NCBI RefSeq assembly: GCF_964199755.1
Contig: NC_133907.1
Coordinates: 5,399,001 to 5,463,000 of the forward strand
Length of the DNA stretch: 64,000 nt
Reading direction: 5' to 3'
From: Larus michahellis
Lineage: Eukaryota; Chordata; Aves; Charadriiformes; Laridae
Each line of letters opens with the position of its first letter. Within the stretch, counting starts at the first letter, position 1. Shown in pieces: positions 1 through 50,100 of this stretch. The position numbers and the translations under genes are program-made. The notes beneath the pieces were generated by a model, which searched no databases, was not told where the DNA came from, and was given only the letters and a program-made list of their open reading frames with translations.

Positions 1-336
1 TGCAATACCCTGATAGAAGATAAGATGCTGATTGCTGTTAGGAAACTTCTGGTGGAGACCTAGGGACCTTTTTTCCCTAGAACTGTACAGTTGTCATGCT
101 TGAAGAGTTTAACCGCATTGTGGGGCTGGTGGCACCTACCTTCTGGTCTCTGTTTTTTTACTAAGAATTCTTGCTGAGCTGTGGAGACTACAGGGTGAGG
201 ATTGAAAAGAATCACGTGGACTAAATCCATGGTCATCTGTTGGGAACGGCTTCATATAGTTGTGTTTGGATGTCTCAGGGCTGCAAGTGGGGCAAACATG
301 GGGCAGGGTTGGTGGAAGTTCTCTTTGTGGATACAG

Positions 337-3300
337 ACGACACTTTCATCCCCAGCCTCCAGAGTGTTCAGAAGGTGATTAGCAGTGACAAACACTGCTT
401 TGAGCTCTACAGCTATGACATCCTGATCCATCAGGATCTAAAACCTTAAGGGTGTTAATAAACATACAAGGGGTTAGAGTATCAGGGCAGCTACTTTCCC
501 TGGACAGGGGTGTCTTGTGATGCTTCTGCGTCTTGTAGGTAGGTGCTTGCAAGCTGGCTCTGGGTGAGCCAGTCTGGAACTGCAAGTGAAGTGTAGAGAG
601 GTTTGAACTGTTTTACATGAAGGAAGCTGGTGTCCAGAAGAAATACAGCTGGTTTTGCTCAAAGTATCAGAGTTTATTAGCTGGGCGCGGCACCCTGTAA
701 CTTTGTCTGTAGAATCTCTAGCACTGTGTTGTGAAACCCTGCCAATTTGGCTATTTCTGGAATATGTTCCCTTCCAAGTATCAGCATATCACAAGTACCA
801 CAACACTTGCCAGAGATGGAGGGTTACCATCATCTCTTCTCCTGCTTGTGTATCTTTCAGCAGTGCCCCATCAGCCCTGATAAACCTCCAGTTGGTGCCT
901 TTGGCTGCCAGCACTAAACATGACCCGTGTCTGTAGTGCACTGGCTAAAAGGCAGACCCCAACTGAAAGATGTCCCTCCTGCCAGTTGTGGAGAAAAGGA
1001 CTCCATAGGACTTGTCGGTATTTAAAACAAAACAACAAAAAAAAACCCTTTAAAACATAATGTGACTCTAGATATTTTTTTTTTCTTAAATACAAGTTTT
1101 CTCACTGGCTAAGTGAAAACTATGTATCATTAAAGTTCAGCTGAAATTCTCAGAATATTATCTGCTACATACGCAACCCAAGTATTGCAACAGCAGGAAC
1201 CCGAGAGCGCAACCGACTTGTAATTACAGGAGTTGAGAAAAACAGAAACAGCAAATAGTACTTCAGAAATTACAAGCAAATAGGATTATTTTTTTTTAGT
1301 CTTTCAGCCTTAATCATGTAAAGTGCAAGCAGGACCATAGGTAAGGAAATTTCCCTTAGATATGATTTATGTTGACGGTGCTCTCCTGTCAAACGTCTTC
1401 TCTAATTTACTTTTTTTTACCTCTTCTGTCTAACAAGACAGCTCTGTGTTCTATCAGCATCAGTCCAATATTTCACGTGATGCCATTGGGGACAGCTTTA
1501 TTTCAAAAGAGCAAATAAACGCAGCTCAGCTGTGGTCCTGGATAGCTCTAATTTGCACAATCTACTCAGTTCATAGCCTCAAACCAAATGACTGCTTAGG
1601 CAGCCTGCACATAAAGAGCTGGAGTAACTTCAGTTGGTCAGGAAACAAATGAATCGGAATGAAAGTCCTCGATGTCATCACAGTGCTCAGGTAGCGCTGC
1701 TGGGCTCTCGTAGAATTGCTATTTGAACACTGTGTTGTGCTAGGAAACTGTTTCCAGGAGACATCCACATTCCGCTGCTAAAAAAGGGTTAATGCTCATT
1801 CTGTGAGTTCTCCTCAGCATTTACGGCTTCAGCTAGACTTTGGTTTTCACTTGTGTGTCTTTCTGGAAGCTAGAGGGATTTTTTTTTTTTTTTCTTTAGT
1901 ACCATCAAGAACAGGAATAGAAACTTTGCAATAAGCTCAGAATGTTCTTTGGCTCGGCGCATGGGAAAGAGATTTGGGGTTGGATTTCCTATTGCTTCAC
2001 ACTTACTCCTGCCTCTAGCAGAGTAATGATTTTTGTAGACAGGCGTTTCTCTTAGATGAACCATTGGCAAAACTGCCGTTTCTCCCTAATTTACTGTTGT
2101 TGTATCCCCTTGGCTTCTGGAGGTGCATGCTTCACCTTCCCTCACTGACAGTAGCCAGGAAAACTGAACTCAAATGTCATCTTCTCAGAGACACACTTCA
2201 TAGTGTGGACAGGGAGAGCAGGCGGGCAAAGATGTTTATTACCTTCTAAGGGGTTTTATTAAACTGTTTGGAACGGATGGTCTGGTTCCATGTCTGTCTT
2301 GGCAACTGGTCGTAATACTCTATAACCTTTATAGCGATTAAATGGTGAATTTCCAGAAACAGAGCAAAGTAAGCAAGCGTGCTGCCACTTCAGAGTGGGA
2401 AAACAAAGCAGCATGGGGCTGCAAAGGGAACGGAGTCCGTGTCAGAGCTGGGACTTGCACAAGAGCTGTCTTTCAGAGGCCCTTCTCCATTGTGCCTCCT
2501 ACACTTACTGCTTCTGCAGCTCTCTGTTTCAAGCAGCTTGTCTTGCAGCATTTTGTGGCTGACTTTACAACTGTGCTAACCTCACATATTAATAGTAGAA
2601 AGATGTTCATCCACTGCTTTCAGCTGTCCAGCTTTGTCTCTGATTGTCTGTGAGTTTATTCTTGTGCGCAGACAGATAATTGTCATTGCTCAGGTACTTC
2701 AGTGTGTGTATTTGATGTTGTAGGCTGGTGGGGAAGGAGAAGCGTGTTGGAGGCTTTGACCTGATACGGAACAATGGGTCTGTCAGCAGAGGGGAAGACC
2801 CGGGTACTCCGGTGAATGAGAACATCATGACAAGCACACGTTTAGGTGCGTACTCATCCAGGGCTGGCAGGGTGCCCTGCTCAAGTTCTTATAGCATCTG
2901 CCCATCAGCAAGAGGAGAGCACACACCTTTCACTGAAAAACAAAAGAACAAGAACGTGTGTGTGAGCTCTTATGGGGTTAAGAGACCAAAAGGAGCAAAT
3001 GCCTTCCAAAAGTGGATGTAAGTGACCAGGCTGCAGAAGCACTGATGAAAACAAGCCTGTAAATGTAGTAGGAACAGTTTCATTCATAGTTCTGCTTTTC
3101 AAGCATTAAGTCACAGCAGACTTCTTCATATGCCAGTTTTGCTGCAAAAAACACTCTACAGTCACTGTGGGGACTGTTTACTGGGCACTTTCCTGAACCT
3201 AGCTGTGCATCTTACTGTTGGGAAGATTCTGAAGTCATACTTCTGAGAGGCTGACATGTATTGTAACTTTATTTCGCAGCACGCAGCTCAGTGTGCTTAC

Positions 3301-3504
3301 AGTCCTCTCTGGCTGTAGTTTCTAACTAGCAAGACATGAGTACAGCCTCACCTGAAAGCGGGACATTACCCCACCTCTATAGGAAGGTAGAGTAAGGTGA
3401 TGTGTGATTCCCCTGTTCACGTTTTCATTGCAGGCTGCTACGATGACAGGAAGAAACAACTGAAGCAGCTTTTCAGGAGTCTTCCTGCACAGCAGAAAGT
3501 GTAG
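337..3504 (+). pseudogene. TTLL9: TTLL9 C-terminal exons, decayed (tubulin polyglutamylase family)
   Basis: TTLL9 is a tubulin tyrosine ligase-like enzyme that adds glutamates to axonemal tubulin. Four terminal exons are recognisable: A 337-445 (contains [13 protein letters not shown]), B 2110-2221 (WLLEVHASPSLTDSSQE, then DTLHSVDRES in a shifted frame), C 2724-2845 (EKRVGGFDLIRNNG) and D 3434-3504 (YDDRKKQLKQLFRSLP, stop). Exons C and D have good splice sites and join in frame. Exons A and B do not: the exon A donor reads TT at 446-447, no AG precedes exon B, two bases are missing after about 2164 so that TGA follows at 2165-2167, the exon B donor is GC (GCGGGC), and the Mg-binding Asn of the EVN motif is His (2126-2128). 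Exon lengths minus the two-base gap fit the expected phases, so the exon boundaries are sound. Earlier exons lie outside the window. Identity comes from remembered human TTLL9. A transcribed but non-functional gene is possible. Confidence 0.8.
447..2109. other. Former TTLL9 intron between exons A and B
   Basis: About 1.7 kb, AT-richer than the rest of the left half. It holds short poly(A) and poly(T) runs (for example a T run near 1881-1894). I see no coding exon, RNA gene or recognisable transposon in it. Confidence 0.5.
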
Positions 3505-5441: not shown

Positions 5442-6769
5442 TCAGCCCTCCAGGATGCGATTGATTAGTTTCATTTCCTCAGCAGTCATGGGGTTCAGGT
5501 TAAATCCCTTCAGCTCAGCTTTACCTGAGAGAACACACAGAAAAAAAATCAGGATTTGGCTACAAAAGAAGTGAAGCAGTCCATGTGAAACTCTATAGAG
5601 GGGCTGCGGGGAGGGCAGGGACAGCCCTGGAAGTGATGTGGGAGCCCATTTAGTGTGCTGGGGGGTGACAGCTCCACACCAGGAGCCGTAGGATACTGCT
5701 GGAGCAGGGCAGGAATTGCAAAGCCAACGGGAAAGGGGCTACAGGAACGCACAGAGCTCAGGAGTTTCTGGACCCTCCTCCTGACACACAACGTCTGCTC
5801 CCAGATACTGAGAAGGTTCCAGAACAGGAGCGTTTACCTTGAGCTTCGAAGAGGCGGTTGACCTTCAGGCGCAGCTCTTTCCGGAGGTTGTTTATCTCCT
5901 CATCCAGATGTTCCTGGTCTGAGACAAGCGGGACAGGAGTGAGGAGGTGACAGCTCTGGGGCGAAGGCTGAACCTTCTGCGGGGCGCTCGGTGTGGAAGC
6001 CCAGGCCCGAGGGGCAGGAGAGGGCTCCTCCCCAGCTGTGTTGGGGTCCCACCCGGTGCTCTGCTGCCCACGGGGCTGAGCCCCGCGTTGCTTCGTGCCC
6101 AAAGGCGCTTCCCAGGACACTGCCTGGGACAGCCGAGCCACGGCCAGGACCTGCCTGCGCCTGCCAGGGGGAGGTTTTGGGCCCTTTGCAGCCCTTTTTC
6201 TAAAATCTTATTAGGGTTAAGACCACCTGTACACAGAGTCCCCGGGGCAGCCGGCCTTACCCTTCCGCAGCATCTCCTTGGTCTGGGCTTTTGGGAGTTC
6301 GATGAACATGTCCCCGAAGCAGACCATGGCCTTGCCTGGGGGGTTGGGGGGGGGGGGTGGGGCGAGAAGAGGGAAAGAAAAAAAGGGAAAGGGGAAGGCT
6401 TTGTCAGAGGGGCTTTCCTCCCCGATCACGCAGCCGTTCCCCGGGCTGCGGGGCTCCCGCGGGGTGCACCGGGCTGGGCCCGGACCTCACCATCGGGCTC
6501 CGGGTCCTTCTGCAGCGCCCGCAGGGCCTCCCGGTTCCGGTTCCGCTTCACGTCCAGGTCCACGATCTGCAAAAGGGAGAGAGGCAGCCGGGGCTCGGGG
6601 CTACCGGCGGCGGGGGAAGGAGGCGACCGGGGGGAGGGTTGGCCCGCCGGAGCTAACGGGGGCGGGGGGGGGAACCGGGCCGTACCTGCTGCCGCGCCGC
6701 CAGCACGTCCTCGGCCAGCTCCTCCACCTCGGCCAGGTAGCGCAGCACGAAGGCCGGGTCCCTCGCCAT
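5442..6769 (-). CDS. PDRG1: PDRG1, p53 and DNA-damage-regulated prefoldin-like protein
   Basis: A small beta-prefoldin-like protein known as a subunit of the URI/R2TP-associated prefoldin-like complex that helps assemble RNA polymerases and PIKK kinases. Five coding exons on the minus strand: 6686-6769, 6491-6566, 6261-6335, 5838-5918 and 5442-5524, all with GT-AG introns, total 399 nt, 132 aa (human about 133). The product starts MARDPAFVLRYLAEVEELAE, continues IVDLDVKRNRNREALRALQK, MVCFGDMFIELPKAQTKEML and LRKELRLKVNRLFEAQG, and ends INRILEG. The two helical arms flanking a short beta hairpin fit a prefoldin coiled coil. The start ATG lies in a CpG island and gives the length seen in mammals. 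Intron 2 contains a G-run at about 6341-6358. The neighbour upstream on the plus strand is XKR7, 5 kb away, so the promoter is not obviously shared. Confidence 0.95.
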
Positions 6770-7130
6770 GGCGCTGCCGGTGCCGGTGCCGGTCCCGGTC
6801 CCGGTCCCGGTCCGCCGCCGTTCCCCGCCGGTCGGCAGCCGCCGCCGCGCGGCCGGGTTCCGCGGCGGGAGGGGCCCGGTGGCAGCGCGCCCCCTGGCGG
6901 CCGCCCTGGGCGCTGCTCACCGATTCCGGGACCGGCTCCGTAAGCCCGGGATGCGGACGGCCCCGGCCCCGCGGGACCCGCCGCCCGGCAGAAGGACGGA
7001 GCGGCCGAGCGGCGCTGAGCCCCGGCGGCGGGGGGGTCCCGGCCCCCAGCCCCGCTCCCCGCAGCCCGGAGGGGCTCTGGGCTGGGACCCCCCCGCCTCG
7101 CCGCGGGTCCCCACGGCGTGTGAATTATTG
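6440..7130 (-). promoter_or_regulatory. PDRG1: CpG island promoter of PDRG1
   Basis: Very GC-rich, CpG-dense sequence covering PDRG1 exons 1-2 and its upstream region. Just upstream of the start codon is a short GGTGCC/GGTCCC hexamer array (about 6777-6815) that would lie in the 5' UTR. No TATA box is visible, which fits a housekeeping promoter. Confidence 0.6.
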
Positions 7131-11917: not shown

Positions 11918-19850
<7,933 letters not shown>

Positions 19851-47100: not shown

Positions 47101-50100
47101 GAATAGCTTTGTGAATTTAATTTGTGTTTAATCACCTGGCTGTGCAGCCTTTCTAATGTCTGGGATGAACACTTTCAGTGTTGTTGTCCATCTCTGATGT
47201 CGTTGATATGTTTCTGTTGTATTAATGTTCCTTCTCCTTTTTGCAGGAAAGGCTAAGATATATGCTGCTCTTGCTCTTGTTTCTGCACGGTGCAGACTCT
47301 TTCTATGTACCTGGTGTGGCTCCTATCAACTTCCACCGCAATGATCCTGTAGAAATAAAGGTAGGATGAACTTGGATGGAGCTGTTAGTCGGTTTGTTTT
47401 GGGTTTTCTTGTGGTTTGTTTTTTTTCTGTCTTTATATTATAGCAGCTAATTGGGACTAGAAAGTCAAATTGGGGGATCCTGTTGCTAAAATTTTGGGGG
47501 CAGATATTTTCTCTTTTTCACAACATTCGTGTAGGGTGTTGGGGATGAGCAGCCCTCAAGTGGTCACTGTCGTCACCTTACCCTGCAGTTCCCAGCATGA
47601 TTCTCTTTCTTGCTTCTGCTATCTTCTACCAGATTCCTTCTGCAGTTGCACCAAAGTCCTCAAGATGTTGCTCTGTTTGGGAAAAGATCCCTCTTTCTCA
47701 ATTGAAGTGAATTTAATGAGAGATTTTTCTCCAGCATTATACTGACTCTCAAAGTGCTTATAGAGGGTGAGCCTTTAGAATCACAGAATCATAGAATCAT
47801 TTAGGTTGGAAAAGACCCTTGGGATCATCGAGTCCAACTATCAACTCCACTCTACAAAGTTCTTCCTTACACCATATCCCCCAACACCACATCTAAACGA
47901 CTCTGAAACACATTCAGGGATGGTGACTCCACCATCTCCCTGGGCAGCCTATTCCAGTGTCTGACCACTCTTTCTGGGAAGAATTTTTTCCTAATGTCCA
48001 GCCTAAACCTACCCTGTTGCAGCTTGAAGCCATTCCTTCTTGTTCTATCGCTAATGACCTGTGAGAAGAGACCAGCACTAACCTCTCTACAATGTCCTTT
48101 CAAGTAGTTATAGAGAGCGATGAGGTCTCCCCTCAGCCTCCTCTTCCTCAAACTAAACAGTCCCAGCTCCTTCAGTTGCTCCTCATAAGATTTCTTCTCC
48201 AGGCCCTTCACCAGCTTCGTTGCCCTCCTCTGCACTCGCTCCAGCACCTCGAGATCTCTCTCATATTGAGGTGCCCAGAACTGGACACAATACTCAAGGT
48301 GTGGCTTCACCAGTGCTGAGTACAGGGGGACAATCACCTCCCTACTTCTGCTGGTCACACTGTTTCTAATACAAGCCAGGATGGCATTGGCTTTCTTGGC
48401 CACCTGGGCACACTGCTAGCTCATGTTCAGCCACTTGTCAATTAGAACCCCCAGGTCCTTTTCTGCCAGGCAGCTCTCCAGCCACACTTCCCCAAGCCTG
48501 TAGCGATGCGTGGGGTTGTTGTGGCCCAAATGCAGGACCCGGCACTTGGCCTTGTTGAAGCTCATACCGTTAGCGTTGGCCCATCGGTCCAATCTATCCA
48601 AGTCTCTCTGTAGAGCCTCCCTGTCCTCATGTAGATCAACACTCCCACTTAGCTTCATGTCATCTGCAAACTTGCTGATGATACACTCTATGTCCTTATC
48701 AAGGTCATCAATAAAGATGTTAAACAGAAATGCTCCCAACACCAAGCCCTGAGGGACACCACTTGTGACCGGCCGCCAGCTGGATTTAACTCCATTGGGC
48801 ACCACTCTTTGGGACCGCCCATCCAGCCAGTGCTTGATCCAGCAGATCGTATGCTCATCCAGGCCATGAGCTGCCAGTTTTTCCATGAAAATTCTATGGG
48901 GGACAACGTCAAATGCTTTTTGAAAGTCTAGGTAGACAATGTCCGCAGCCGTTCCCTCATCCAATAATCGGGTCATCTTGTCATAGAAGGAAATCAGGTT
49001 CATCAGGCAGGATCTGCCTTTCATAAACCCGTGCTGACTAGGCCTGATCCCCTGCTTGTCCATTATATGAGTTGTAATGGCACTCAAGATGATCTGCTCC
49101 ATGACCTTCCCTGCTACCAAGGTCAGACTGACAGGCCTATAGTTTCCCGGATCCTCCTTTCTGCCTTTTTTTGTAGATGGGCGCTACATTTGCTACCCTC
49201 CAGTCCATTGGGACCTCAGCAGTTAGCCATGACTTCAGGTAGATAAGGTGGTAGCTGAATGGTAGAATAAAGAAGTGGTTTGAATCAGACCTTTTCAATT
49301 TTCTTTTCTACCCAGTTTGCTCATGTTGTGTCTTCAAGTCAAGTGAAATCTATGATAAGCCCTTTCCAGGTTCAGGTGTTTGTCCTTGAGTGTTGCAGAT
49401 CTTACAACCCAGGCTTGCTGAAGAGCTGTTCCTGCGCAGTATTGCTGGTAGTGAATGATGGAACTGCTTCACCCATACAGGAGGAAGCCAGGCTTTGTTT
49501 CCAGACATCAGCAATTTATAGCTCATTTCATTTATTTTTCTAAAGCTGTGGCCTCTGTCTCAGCAAAACCCATCACCCTTGGGGATGCTGAGGTTTGCTG
49601 CTCCCATTCGAAGCACAACACAACTCGCTCTCTGGCCACAGGCTGCCAGACGTAGGCTATTTTTAAGCAAATGAGACTTGCCTGTGGCTACAGTAAGCTT
49701 CCCAGAAGAAGGGAGTATTGGAATGGCTGTTCTCAAAGGGATTTTATGAGCCAAATGCTTCCTCAAGTGATAAGGCAAGTCAGCGTGTTTGCCAGTGCTC
49801 TTCCAATAAATGAGCTTGGCTGCGTTACAAAACACTTCTGTTTTTTGGAGCAGCTCTGGCCTTGACTCTCGCGGTATGTCTCTGCACTTCCCTTGTGCCA
49901 TGTGATTTGCGGGAACTCTCCAGAAATCTTTGGGTTTTGTCACCATCTGATGTGGGAAGACATCACCACCGTTGTCTTCCCAATCTGATGGCTCTCTGGC
50001 TTTCCTTATAGGGAAAAAAAATTGCTGAACTCTTCGTATCACTAGAGGCCAGACCTCTAGGTCCAGTGTGACATGGTTTTTTTATTTATTTTTTTTTTAG

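Follow-up and report, generated by a model that had tools for sequence, protein, structure and literature searches.

We found that TTLL9, which encodes an axonemal tubulin polyglutamylase, stands in the genome of Larus michahellis as a disabled gene in its ancestral place, with its introns kept and no intact copy found elsewhere in the assembly among the best candidates scored. We therefore read the locus as a unitary pseudogene, in which the only orthologous copy has decayed in this lineage, and put the probability of this reading at about 0.93. The first-pass annotation had proposed that TTLL9 appears to be inactivated by several independent lesions. This is supported, and the upstream half of the gene adds to the damage: its 5' end is missing, one codon is nonsense, one exon is nearly erased and further splice sites are lost.

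The window analysed is a stretch of 64,000 nucleotides (C16:5399001-5463000, NC_133907.1), and plain positions below count from its start. As it begins inside TTLL9, the 30 kb preceding it were added, giving a joined stretch of 94 kb with no N; it lies in a GC-rich part of a small chromosome of 17.7 Mb. Genome-wide searches were run on the assembly (1.4055 Gb in 616 contigs), and the lesions were read in this one assembly of one species. Human residue numbers refer to a provisional 435-residue sequence of human TTLL9; the human TTLL1 used for comparison is likewise provisional. TTLL9 exon boundaries were inferred from homology and phase. The exon labels E4 to E13 are used for convenience and do not follow the human annotation; exons A to D, inside the window, are E10 to E13.

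Firstly, we established which gene the remnant represents. Human TTLL9 matched exon A with an E-value of 3e-19 within the 94 kb and 2e-15 genome-wide, and the Pfam TTL profile matched the same exon at 21.9 bits (cut-off 20.1). The homology follows exon order with introns kept, so that the remnant is not a retrocopy. It lies on the plus strand between DUSP15 and PDRG1, both on the minus strand, which is the expected place; human has the order DUSP15-TTLL9-PDRG1 too. Six exons of DUSP15 were placed, and the intact PDRG1 (5445..6775), with five exons placed, served as both control and synteny anchor. In the genome-wide protein search, the two longest remnant stretches were 76 and 66 percent identical to human TTLL9 (pairwise). 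The four TTLL1 stretches reached 56-68 percent, and the longest match outside the remnant, a single-exon gene, 40 percent. With the closest sequence and the place between DUSP15 and PDRG1, the remnant is taken as the TTLL9 orthologue by descent; exon content and place identify it as the gene known as Ttll9 in mouse and tpg1 in Chlamydomonas.

Secondly, we read the exons inside the window, all on the plus strand. Exon A (human 267-332) had been given a start at 337, which we corrected to 279: its span is 279..445, since GCKW and KHG..VEVLF, which align to the human protein, precede 337, and the acceptor AG is kept at 277-278. Between these two segments the exon carries an in-frame deletion of 30 bases at 290|291. 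The ten codons removed are present in human TTLL9 and have a counterpart in this genome's TTLL1 and in the TTLL6 of solved structures. At its 3' end, which reads AAACC|TTAAGG, TT replaces the donor GT at 446..447, and read-through gives a TAA. Exon B (human 333-370; 2110..2221) begins T|TGG at 2110 and is preceded by CC instead of the acceptor AG at 2108..2109. Its frame WLLEVHASPSLTDSSQEN is two bases short relative to the continuing frame ELKCHLLRDTLHSVDRES; this deletion is followed by a TGA at 2165-2167, and His replaces the Asn of the EVN motif. The donor of exon B is GC instead of GT at 2222..2223, in the context CAG|GCGGGC. Four of these defects had been named in the first-pass annotation (the lost donor of exon A, and the lost acceptor, the two-base deletion with its TGA and the GC donor of exon B), and all four are present in the sequence. 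Exons C (2724..2845) and D (3434..3504) are open, the former with both AG and GT present, the latter with AG present and open up to a TAG stop.

The half of the gene upstream of the window is damaged further. Exon E4 (human 89-150; C16:5394777-5394962) has an open frame and keeps both its AG and its GT. Exon E5 (human 151-173; about C16:5396890-5396957) has GT where the phase of E4 places the acceptor AG, and its W171 codon is TGA; entered through a nearby cryptic AG, it meets a TGA at the fourth codon, as read by eye. Little is left of the catalytic-core exon that corresponds to human 174-217: the only recognisable piece is LRVYVLVTS (C16:5397281-5397307), followed by CT for the donor GT. The score of this placement was reached by 2 of 400 shuffles, and by 1 of 100 in an earlier shuffle run; it took the place of a weaker candidate for the core exon that had been chosen by eye. 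Exon E8 (human 218-247) keeps the AG in front and has CT for the donor GT, and E9 (human 248-266) is open with AG and GT present. Neither a start exon nor any exon for human residues 1-88 was found in the 94 kb. DUSP15 exon 1 and E4 are separated by 2.1 kb, where the best match did not exceed shuffled sequence: its score was reached by 57 of 100 shuffles for human TTLL9 and by 97 of 100 for the species' own TTLL1. We also considered a repeat insertion as the cause of the missing 5' exons and set it aside: no inserted element was seen in these 2.1 kb, which gave 26 matches to the genome besides themselves, all short (about 50-134 bases).

The decay is uneven, with E4, E9, C and D in apparently good shape. 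In three of the four lost donors it is the first base of the GT that has changed, to TT (446) or CT (C16:5397308 and C16:5397477), a pattern that is odd for random decay and for which we have no explanation beyond chance.

Thirdly, we compared these counts with controls. Of the TTLL9 splice sites that were placed, 4 of 8 donors have GT and 6 of 8 acceptors have AG, a count that leaves out the acceptor of the erased exon, which could not be placed. DUSP15 and PDRG1 together have GT at 10/10 donors and AG at 9/9 acceptors. Splice sites are therefore lost at 6/16 positions in TTLL9 against 0/19 in the flanking genes (Fisher p 0.005). TTLL1 in the same assembly belongs to the same family as the remnant but is intact: all 8 of its introns are GT-AG, its 423-residue frame is complete, and 399 of the 423 residues are identical to those of human TTLL1.

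At the residue level, the alignment of the remnant to human TTLL9 spans 282 residues in 11 blocks, of which 210 match. The count leaves out residues 1-88, the erased exon except its nine residues, residue 351, where the frame shifts, the codons deleted from exon A and the one beside them, exon C past residue 395, and exon D at its ends. In these blocks, human TTLL9 and the TTLL1 of this genome share the same residue at 133 sites, and the remnant has changed at 22 of them. Over the whole protein, human TTLL1 differs at 10 of 179 such sites (Fisher p 0.002), a rough yardstick, as this control is human TTLL1 and not a TTLL9 orthologue and the sites were themselves chosen by agreement between TTLL9 and TTLL1. 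The changes at conserved residues include K157E in QGKG, W171 to stop, D327H and N338H in the EVN motif. The EVN Asn and the QGKG Lys we take, from work on TTL and ATP-grasp enzymes, to belong to the metal and nucleotide site. Judged on its sequence, the locus lacks the continuous frame, the intact splice sites and the catalytic residues of a working TTLL9 enzyme. Compared with a working TTLL9, it is a remnant from which core residues and splice sites have been lost.

Could the gene in fact be functional, and the lesions mistakes of sequencing or assembly? Errors would have had to produce missing exons, a nonsense codon, deletions of 30 and of 2 bases and splice-site changes, over about 9 kb that contain no Ns. 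In the same assembly, DUSP15 and PDRG1 are canonical at 19/19 splice sites and TTLL1 has its full frame with 8/8 canonical introns, which indicates that the assembly is not generally poor. The first-pass annotation had called sequencing error unlikely; the variety of the lesions, in a single copy beside clean genes, upholds that judgement, and we regard error as exceedingly improbable. Alternatively, an intact TTLL9 may have moved or be missing from the assembly, the remnant being a redundant dead copy. The assembly may indeed be incomplete, and the genome-wide protein search scores only its best candidates. Among these, it returned 21 matches: 4 on C16, which are the remnant, 4 on C1, which are TTLL1, and 13 on nine other contigs, at most 68 percent identical and on contigs that also carry TTL-family matches. 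Hence 17 of the 21 fall on stretches assigned to other members of the family, at most 68 percent identical, and the remnant itself occupies the expected place. Two DNA searches, one using 700 bases around E4 and the other using window positions 200-2900, matched only the remnant itself. No second copy of TTLL9 was thus found in the 1.4-Gb assembly by the protein search, with its best candidates scored, or by the two DNA searches, and we consider a functional copy elsewhere highly improbable. One of the other matches lies in a TTL-family gene (L012, C3:54224723-54225715) with an intronless frame of 578 residues over the match, probably TTLL2.

A different reading has the open exons still yielding a product, be it shortened, non-catalytic or put to some other use. 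Four exons (human 89-150, human 248-266, C and D) have kept open frames and normal splice sites, which together with the uneven decay speaks for such a product. These open exons also count against a pseudogene, as do the 210 of 282 matches to human TTLL9, a lot for an old one. Against a reused product, no start exon was found, and E5, which comes after the first open exon, runs into a TGA through either its inferred start or the cryptic AG. We hold a reused product very unlikely and return to the unitary pseudogene as the reading that best fits the locus.

If TTLL9 is such a pseudogene, no transcript from the locus would encode a working glutamylase. Ttll9-null mice are reported to be infertile (PMC11276731); in their sperm, doublet 5 is less glutamylated, doublet 7 is shortened and beating halts, and the Chlamydomonas homologue tpg1 acts with FAP234 (PMC7970040). 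For the sperm of this bird, we infer that the polyglutamylation supplied by TTLL9 in the mouse would be either absent or provided by another ligase, for example the intact TTLL1, and that sperm and cilia would manage with whichever ligases remain, TTLL1 among them. The number of independent hits that have accumulated suggests that the loss is not recent, and it therefore probably predates this species and is common to its relatives. That it occurred early in a whole group of birds, leaving sperm and motile cilia without TTLL9 glutamylation of doublets 5 and 7 as described in mouse, is a tentative reading, to which we give somewhat less than an even chance. It would find a parallel in the bird CatSper genes, sperm-motility genes that were left as broken syntenic fragments (PMC2572835). 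CatSper differs in being a calcium channel, and its fragments were reported for two birds, chicken and zebra finch (PMC2572835); the TTLL9 case comes from a single genome.

Gene losses in birds, sperm genes included, are known, and the decay of TTLL9 is a clear case of that known kind of event. For a gene that has been lost, TTLL9 is conserved to an unusual depth; it has homologues in Chlamydomonas, Tetrahymena and mammals (PMC11276731 and PMC7970040). A vertebrate living without TTLL9 would show that the requirement for it can relax and would serve as a natural experiment for telling axonemal functions that rely on TTLL9 from those that rely on TTLL1, and TTLL9 would join CatSper as a sperm-motility gene decayed in a bird. 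Were an early, group-wide loss true, nature would have made those birds knockouts for a gene that is retained from algae to mammals. Our literature search, which most subscription papers escaped, listed no published report of TTLL9 loss in birds among its matches; PMC5390458 gives TTLL9 as one table row, and PMC6609395 does not name it in the parts covered.

Other features were seen in the window. An XK-related match at about 12044-12352, probably XKR7 by its place, is overlapped at its end by a tandem array on the plus strand (12300-12848) of a 95-base unit in 5.6 copies; this unit apparently copies the final part of the XK-related exon together with a possible GT donor. Further along, at 48419-49183 on the minus strand, an open frame of 255 residues matches the reverse transcriptase profile PF00078 (E 4e-36) and is probably a CR1-like LINE, a putative type assignment.
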